From: Snodgrassella sp. CFCC 13594
Lineage (GTDB): Bacteria; Pseudomonadota; Gammaproteobacteria; Burkholderiales; Neisseriaceae
Reading direction: 5' to 3'
NCBI RefSeq assembly: GCF_001590725.1
Contig: NZ_LQXR01000001.1
Coordinates: 1 to 64,000, forward strand
DNA: 64,000 bases
A model generated the notes under the pieces. The model worked only from the letters and a program-made list of their open reading frames with translations, was not told the DNA's origin and did not search any database. Numbering within the stretch: position 1 is the stretch's first letter; each line of letters starts with the position of its first letter. A program made the translations under genes and the position numbers. Below are positions 27,508 through 28,159 of the stretch, one piece after another.

Positions 27508-27536
27508 TTGACAAGCGCCGTGCAACTGCCTACTAT
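27508..27536 (+). promoter_or_regulatory. Strong sigma-70 promoter
   Basis: A consensus -35 box TTGACA (27508-27513), a 17-base spacer and TACTAT as -10 (27531-27536). It is the best promoter match I found in the window. Transcription should begin near 27543. Confidence 0.75.
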
Positions 27537-27542
27537 CTGACC

Positions 27543-27675
27543 TGTATCCCGATAGGAGTAATCCTGCCAACCTGCCTGAGCCGGTAAGGTGGTTTGTCGC
27601 TGATGGCGACAGATGCGGCGGTTTTCAGCGCAATCAAGGCTAAGCACCACCTTCGCATTGTGCGGAGGTTTTTTT
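27543..27675 (+). ncRNA. Candidate small RNA or attenuator leader (about 133 nt)
   Basis: This unit lies between a near-consensus promoter and a strong terminator, and no protein frame fits. Visible structure includes AGGA-GTAA-TCCT (27554-27565), a six-base stem TGTCGC/GCGACA (27595-27600 and 27606-27611), and a terminator hairpin at 27649-27669 followed by seven T. The element AAGGTGGT (27586-27593) is perfectly complementary to ACCACCTT (27646-27653), which overlaps the 5' arm of the terminator, so terminator and long-range pairing exclude each other. That is an attenuator or riboswitch-like layout ahead of the gene at 27748. Motifs of 6S RNA, SRP RNA, RNase P and tmRNA were not recognised. 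Confidence 0.55.
27649..27675 (+). terminator. Rho-independent terminator of the candidate small RNA
   Basis: Nine-base arms ACCTTCGCA and TGCGGAGGT with one G-T wobble, a TTG loop, and seven consecutive T (27669-27675). Confidence 0.85.
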
Positions 27676-27747
27676 GTGGGATATCAATGATGATCAACGG
27701 GGGATTTACACCAAATTGCAACCCCATAATTGCTAAAAGGACGCATG

Positions 27748-28071
27748 ATGCAGACCATTTTTTCTATCCAACATCTTGAATTTTCTATACAAACTCAACC
27801 TGGCGCTGAAGCAGTTCGGTTTTGGGTGTGTTTTGCCGATCAATCACCACGCTGTTTGTGTCAATACAGCCCTTCTCAAAAAGCGTGGTACACAGCGTCT
27901 GGCTTCCCGCTCGTGGCAGGGCAAGTGTTGTTGCCGGATGCGGATGCACATGTCTTGAAAACCGCTTTGTTTTTACTGGGGGTACGTGAAGTGGATGATG
28001 CGATAGCGGCCTTGGCGAAACAAGCGGCTTGGGTGAACCAGCAACGGCGAAACACAACAGCGGCCGCCTGA
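27748..28071 (+). CDS. Small protein of unknown function
   Basis: A 107-residue soluble protein (MQTIFSIQHLEFSIQTQ) with AAAGGA six bases upstream of the chosen ATG; an ATG directly before it at 27745 is possible. No signal peptide or membrane segment. The middle part WVCFADQSPRCLCQYSPSQKAWYTASGFPLVAGQVLLP looks like a small beta-rich fold, the C-terminus is helical and Ala-rich. I do not recognise a family. It lies 73 bases after the candidate RNA terminator, so its expression may depend on read-through. Confidence 0.65.
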   Translation: MQTIFSIQHLEFSIQTQPGAEAVRFWVCFADQSPRCLCQYSPSQKAWYTASGFPLVAGQVLLPDADAHVLKTALFLLGVREVDDAIAALAKQAAWVNQQRRNTTAAA

Positions 28072-28128: not shown

Positions 28129-28159
28129 AAGGCTGCCTGAAACATTCAGGCAGCCTTTT
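28129..28159. terminator. Inverted uptake-sequence pair, bidirectional terminator
   Basis: AAGGCTGCCTGAA (28129-28141) and TTCAGGCAGCCTT (28145-28157) form a perfect 13-base stem with a three-base loop between two convergent genes; T or A tracts flank both sides. Confidence 0.88.

Follow-up and report, generated by a model that had tools for sequence, protein, structure and literature searches.

A putative SAM-responsive leader with SAM-I/IV and SAM-II-type elements in tandem before a small gene of Neisseriaceae

The leader of the gene at 27748 in the window (the whole 64,000-nt stretch of DNA analysed here) is very probably a two-stage OFF switch responding to S-adenosylmethionine (SAM), in which two unrelated SAM aptamers stand in tandem. 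The presence of both elements, their order, conservation and covariation, the promoter and the terminator were computed in this study and are located as follows.

27508–27536, + strand: sigma-70-type promoter TTGACA-17-TACTAT, matching 10 of 12 consensus positions
27539–27647, + strand: SAM-I/IV riboswitch aptamer (RF01725)
27542–27548/27612–27618, + strand: aptamer stem P1
27554–27557/27562–27565, + strand: aptamer stem P2
27566–27576/27583–27593, + strand: aptamer stem P3
27586–27593, + strand: AAGGTGGT, the 3′ strand of P3 and candidate antiterminator (8 bp with 27646–27653, no G-U)
27595–27601/27605–27611, + strand: P4-like hairpin of the aptamer
27649–27675, + strand: intrinsic terminator of the SAM-I/IV unit (9-bp stem 27649–27669, 3-nt loop, seven T at 27669–27675)
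27697–27741, + strand: SAM-II-type pseudoknot riboswitch (models R2 and R1, covariation in P1 and P2)
27699–27703 (GGGG within)/27722–27725 (CCCC), + strand: P1 of the SAM-II-type element
27704–27708, + strand: AUUUA of the SAM-II-type element
27716–27721 (UUGCAA) with 27730–27733 (UUGC) and 27735–27736 (AA), + strand: P2 of the SAM-II-type element
27737–27741, + strand: Shine-Dalgarno sequence AAGGA, whose GG would pair with CC at 27711–27712 in the ligand-bound pseudoknot
27748–28071, + strand: gene of 107 codons encoding a protein family found only in Neisseriaceae; an ATG at 27745 is also possible

By analogy with the known classes, we infer that SAM is the ligand of both elements, that the switch works in the OFF direction and that an antiterminator takes part. 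In stage 1 (27539–27675), SAM binding would fold the SAM-I/IV aptamer and hold AAGGTGGT in P3, whereupon the intrinsic terminator would form and transcription would stop after ~130 nt. At low SAM the aptamer would be less stable, and AAGGTGGT or another aptamer strand would pair with the 5′ arm of the terminator and let RNA polymerase read on. In stage 2 (27697–27741), the read-through RNA would fold with SAM into an H-type pseudoknot of the SAM-II type, the last 3′ strand of which is the Shine-Dalgarno sequence, and translation initiation would be blocked. Since both stages would be OFF in the presence of SAM, the small gene would be made only when SAM is scarce.

The SAM-I/IV aptamer and its terminator

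The original prediction recognised no known RNA class in this region and proposed a new regulatory RNA of Neisseriaceae, a proposal that was to fall with a match to a known Rfam family. An Rfam search of the region returned RF01725 over the full model (1–99), at 41.4 bits against a gathering score of 41.1 (E 9.7e-5), which refutes the claim of novelty and supports the other part of the proposal, namely an attenuator or riboswitch controlling the gene at 27748. The margin over the cut-off is 0.3 bits only, and such a marginal score would suit a new, unclassified attenuator with another ligand; however, the match is full length and correct in structure, it is the single copy in the whole source genome (E 2.4e-5), and the orthologous leaders reach 42.8–53.5 bits, so that another ligand class is scarcely credible here. 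Those orthologous leaders are six (L003, L004, L005, L006, L015 and L020). Among 83 Neisseriaceae genomes, 26 contain RF01725 above the cut-off, and the matches fall into two groups, most of them preceding metK (the gene was recognised by eye) and the six sharing the layout of the window.

As a member of SAM-I/IV, the window aptamer has typical and atypical traits. All four stems belong to the minimum-energy fold (RNAfold, −47.9 kcal/mol) and agree with the Rfam structure line. The SAM-contacting bases of the SAM-I core, which we take to be G11, C44, A45, U57, G58, U7-A87 and U88 in SAM-I numbering, are all present by eye on the Rfam alignment. The residue ranges of the SAM-I binding site are given in PMC6890682. 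In both the fold and the Rfam alignment, P2 consists of four uninterrupted base pairs, and a P2 without an internal loop is a trait of SAM-I/IV (PMC2864571). Like the described class (RF01725; Weinberg et al. 2010, PMC2864571), the element combines a full-length match above the gathering score and an unbroken P2 with the conserved CAACC/GGUG of P3, a P4-like hairpin, and a terminator that follows. A candidate pseudoknot between the P3 loop and the 3′ tail would have 4 bp in the window (GCCU/AGGC or AGCC/GGCU); most relatives could form 4–7 bp there, with apparent covariation between differing sequences such as CUUCCCG/CGGGAAG, GUCCA/UGGAC and CUCCG/CGGAG. Unlike the described class, the window has CCGAU instead of AAGAG in J1/2, and a small uncharacterised gene takes the place of metK as the target. 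J1/2 is variable among the relatives as well (AAGAG, ACGAG, CAGAG, ATGAG, TTGAG, TCGAG and others), and its central G is always kept. Within its known riboswitch class the first element is unexceptional, and this class membership points to SAM as its ligand.

The promoter, the folded leader and the strong seven-T terminator of the original prediction were found in place; the anatomy drawn for 27508–27748 stood, but the unit had been closed too early, and the second conserved RNA element at 27697–27741 had been missed. In all six window-like leaders, TTGACA and a −10-like hexamer with roughly the spacing of the window lie upstream of the SAM-I/IV match. A scoring of the exact 17-nt form covered four of the seven loci. 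Because a TTGACA/T....T promoter also precedes the aptamers of the relatives, the promoter of the window is more than a chance occurrence.

The antiterminator proposed for the window is a candidate. The eight complementary bases, AAGGTGGT and its complement ACCACCTT at 27646–27653, are both in place, and their pairing is incompatible with the 5′ arm of the terminator, as had been claimed, and also with P3. Such pairing is possible, but AAGGTGGT is the conserved 3′ strand of P3 rather than a free strand, and the pairing is not conserved. Complementarity of eight bases within the 241-nt region is expected 0.4 times by chance and was reached in 26% of shuffles, and it was accordingly dropped as stand-alone evidence; when only pairs of the aptamer with the terminator count, the share drops to 2.75%, a somewhat less common event. 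The −47.9 kcal/mol fold of the complete leader contains both aptamer and terminator, and the fold with the antiterminator forced is 6.4 kcal/mol weaker, a modelled gap that would be compatible with a default-terminating switch opened by kinetics. In L015, the 5′ strands of P1 and P2 can pair with the terminator, and in L003 a region 3′ of P3 can pair with the terminator loop. As the relatives use these other alternative pairings, mutually exclusive folding looks general, and the AAGGTGGT/ACCACCTT pairing looks local to the window.

The metK leaders (L007–L014, L016–L019, L021–L027, L029, L031 and L045–L052) consist of SAM-I/IV plus a terminator and account for most Neisseriaceae genomes with a match. 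In these leaders the terminator (CTTAATGC, CTTGATGC) complements, by eye, the 5′ strand of P1 (GCATTAAG, GCATCAAG), L016 shows a compensatory change, and judging from these sequences the P1 strand is likely to be the antiterminator. In another genus of the family (g6), a SAM-I-type element of 33–35 bits, below the SAM-I/IV threshold, precedes a MetE-like gene (L030:1501–1617 and L032:1501–1617).

The SAM-II-type element in front of the start codon

The small-gene loci share the motifs AUUUA, CC, UUGC, GCUAAA and GG(A) and a short hairpin directly before the start codon, and this conserved block resembles the core of SAM-II. Its Rfam scores are low. The window element reaches 17.0 bits with RF01726, far below the cut-off of 44, and RF00521 gives 25.3 bits in L006, 24.8 in L002, 20.7 in L015 and 18.8 in L003 at a cut-off of 36; the gathering score is a curated search threshold and not a structural feature. 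When RF00521 was searched over 83 whole genomes, the top match was the element preceding the small gene in G012, a genome of the same genus as the window; no match passed the cut-off, and 62 of the 83 genomes gave some match at E<=1, which makes this search noisy on its own.

Two models were built from the Neisseriaceae copies, both containing P1 only and leaving out the pseudoknot stem P2. Model R2, made from four copies of another genus with the window locus left out, matches the window element at 38.9 bits (E 1.7e-6 in 103 kb) and nothing else in the 64-kb window. Model R1 scores 56.8 bits on the window element and gives a single match in each of 8 of the 83 Neisseriaceae genomes, directly before the small gene, except in G028, where another ORF follows. 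These eight matches are the training sequences of R1, which was trained on Neisseriaceae copies only, and its specificity therefore rests on the absence of any further match in the 83 genomes. Over 399 genomes of the order, R1 matched 12 further genomes, nearly always just before start codons, and one of these matches outside Neisseriaceae, before a metX-like gene, coincides with an Rfam SAM-II match above the cut-off (36.2 bits). Two R1 matches, L111:574–632 (− strand) and L136:1501–1559 (− strand), have AGTTC in place of ATTTA with UUGC and GCUAAA intact; they are possibly coding (GEFIRIAGP) or a variant aptamer.

Both stems of an H-type pseudoknot, the P1 hairpin and the P2 pseudoknot, covary as in the architecture of SAM-II. 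In P1, four of six pairs change on both sides among the eight Neisseriaceae copies (score 0.176 versus 0.055 when shuffled, 0/500). In P2, 25 of 28 copies form the pair that comes next after the invariant GC/GC, versus 13.4 in shuffled alignments (0/5000), and the pairing types include GCCAA/TTGGC, GCCAC/GTGGC, GCCAT/ATGGC, GCGGC/GCCGC and GCAA/TTGC. The CC/GG pair between 27711–27712 and the Shine-Dalgarno GG is invariant in all eight Neisseriaceae copies. The SAM-II binding core comprises U10, U11, the A-U-U before GC, and the U and A of GCUAAA (PMC11508383); AUUUA, AUUGC and GCUAAA are intact in the window, and three relatives have C for the A that precedes UU. The element resembles SAM-II (RF00521 SAM_alpha and RF01726) in its H-type pseudoknot, in the core AUUUA ... 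CC ... UUGC ... GCUAAA ... GG, in a loop length within one base and in the use of the Shine-Dalgarno sequence as the 3′ strand. By contrast, the Neisseriaceae loop between P1 and the pseudoknot strand is very short, and the Rfam scores, where given, are 17–25 bits in Neisseriaceae (gathering scores 44 and 36). SAM-V (RF01826) gave no match in the window, and a relative (L132) reached 31.3 bits with it against a cut-off of 41. The second element is a divergent member of the SAM-II type, the class again suggesting SAM as the ligand.

An N-terminally longer protein could in principle explain the conserved block as a coding motif (GDLxQIAAP..AKQE), since one frame is open through the element in several loci, for example over 185 codons in L092. 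However, the distance from AUUUA to UUGC is 6, 7 or 8 nt and that to GCUAAA takes all values modulo 3 with the flanking motifs intact, so that the motif spacing shifts the frame between loci; in the window, TAA at 27727–27729 ends that frame, and P1 and P2 covary as paired strands. A coding origin is barely conceivable on these grounds. More weight, within what we still regard as an improbable reading, belongs to the view that SAM-I/IV alone is functional and that 27697–27741 is a degenerate remnant or a ligand-free translation-enhancer hairpin. The 17-bit Rfam score of the window, a short P1 of four base pairs with a mismatch beside it in the alignment, and a P2 of 2–4 bp that makes the Neisseriaceae copies the weakest would all fit with decay. 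However, AUUUA, UUGC, GCUAAA and the CC/GG core are intact in all eight copies while P1 covaries, and G012 retains the element although its SAM-I/IV was lost or never present, which would be odd for a remnant. The members of a tandem need not both work, since the SAM-II domain of a tandem SAM-II/SAM-V RNA was found inactive in the full-length molecule (PMC11508383). The preferred reading remains a second SAM-responsive stage acting at translation.

Tandem arrangement among relatives

In the window, 49 nt without an ORF separate the two riboswitch matches, a seven-T terminator lies between them and the Shine-Dalgarno sequence is inside the second; the layout of a bi-mechanism tandem, with the first riboswitch attached to a terminator and the second over the ribosome-binding site, is therefore found here. 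The order of promoter, SAM-I/IV, terminator, SAM-II-type element and gene, again without an intervening ORF, occurs in seven Neisseriaceae loci, and T-run terminators lie between the two elements in 7/7 of them. Alternatively, the promoter-terminator unit might act above all as a free sRNA, as the original prediction had allowed: termination would release a discrete RNA of ~130 nt, and Listeria is known to have a trans-acting RNA derived from a riboswitch (cited in PMC12121620). However, the unit and its order before one and the same gene family are conserved, and a second riboswitch lies over the ribosome-binding site of that gene, which argues for control in cis and makes a free-standing sRNA very unlikely.

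Some related loci depart from the complete layout. G012 has a SAM-II-type element and the small gene without SAM-I/IV, and its upstream gene is related. When 60 relatives were searched at the DNA level with the entire 281-nt unit, the single match was one of 61 bases, namely the SAM-II-type element of G012. In G028, the tandem precedes a different ORF, of which the first 28 residues are only weakly similar. Six leaders of two other families carry a SAM-II-type element 21–67 nt after SAM-I/IV, with weak R1 scores of 14–24 bits; by eye, the genes behind them are metY-like, carbonic-anhydrase-like and AbrB-like, and a strong hairpin ahead of a T-rich stretch between the elements is clear in three of the six and not in the others. 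At several further loci a gene separates the two elements: L108, L109, L111, L114 and L124 contain SAM-I/IV, a DUF3293-like gene (by eye), a SAM-II-type element and a second small gene, and with the riboswitches split in this manner only the later of the operon's genes would come under second-stage control. L130 (1501–1713, − strand) is a tandem of SAM-II and SAM-II-type elements, in which SAM_alpha at 45.4 bits, above the cut-off, is followed after ~80 nt by an R1-type element over the ribosome-binding site.

The Neisseriaceae tandem is a new instance of a rare but known arrangement. A 2022 review counts seven tandems of SAM-II followed by SAM-I/IV and two in the inverted order, which is that of the window, lists SAM-II/SAM-V tandems as well, and describes a bi-mechanism logic of transcription first and translation second (PMC9481103); the main-text passages considered name no organism or gene for the two SAM-I/IV-then-SAM-II examples. 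Such tandems likewise combine two different SAM aptamers, the first with a terminator and the second over the ribosome-binding site, whereas the present set comprises seven Neisseriaceae loci and further families and has a new target gene. Thus, a rare order for which two examples were counted in 2022 recurs in several families of one order, something that the standard models fail to show because the second aptamer has diverged too far for them. A search of the open-access literature found no description of the Neisseriaceae tandem or of its small gene.

SAM riboswitches have been predicted in the same family, before metK in N. meningitidis (PMC7237195) and, below significance, in N. gonorrhoeae (PMC4176332), and the metK leaders of Neisseriaceae are RF01725 matches. 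The metK riboswitch of Neisseria differs from the window in its gene, in having no second element and in its likely antiterminator, the 5′ strand of P1 paired with the terminator. An earlier survey saw no known regulator of metK in beta-proteobacteria and reported SAM_alpha only in Rhizobiales and Rhodobacterales (PMC4239095), and SAM-II has been mentioned in Beta- and Gammaproteobacteria (PMC2704228). The metXZ RNA, a pseudoknot proposed before metX/metZ in beta-proteobacteria, belongs to the same bacterial class; unlike the SAM-II-type element it is described as followed by a terminator, and as it was compared by description only, a relation is a lead and nothing firmer (PMC4239095).

The small gene and its protein

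Relatives of the ~107-aa protein are present in seven of the 83 Neisseriaceae genomes, the source genome of the window included, and none were found elsewhere in 399 genomes drawn from the order. Identity is 33–37% to the closer relatives and 21–25% to the rest, with conserved W, FP and LFLxG. The protein has no match in Pfam, NCBIfam, PDB sequences or plasmids. The structure predicted from two sequences is poor (mean pLDDT 62.5; strands, then two helices), and Foldseek with this poor model gave no match at E<=0.001. In one Neisseria MAG, the small gene lies between cysM and cysJ (genes identified by eye), and elsewhere its neighbours are unrelated. The leader itself provides a functional lead for this unannotated family: a gene silenced by SAM at two levels would likely act in the supply of SAM, methionine or sulfur. 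We suggest, tentatively and with somewhat more doubt than conviction, that in Neisseriaceae and other beta-proteobacteria the SAM-II-type elements are a distinct subclass, for the most part missed by Rfam, which acts at translation as the second stage after a terminator switch of SAM-I/IV (or SAM-II), and that the protein takes an as yet unrecognised part in the homeostasis of SAM, methionine or sulfur.

In L092, the 185-codon open frame through the SAM-II-type element (L092:3749–4306) contains GDLFPIAAPESAKQE, and gene callers could extend the N-terminus accordingly; the true start of the small protein is probably the ATG after the element. Downstream of the gene in the window, an inverted pair of AGGCTGCCTGAA at 28130–28156 is likely to be a terminator. 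The 64 kb contain 25 occurrences of this 12-mer, the AT/AG DUS of Neisseria is absent from the same window, and the combination suggests a DUS dialect like that of Simonsiella.
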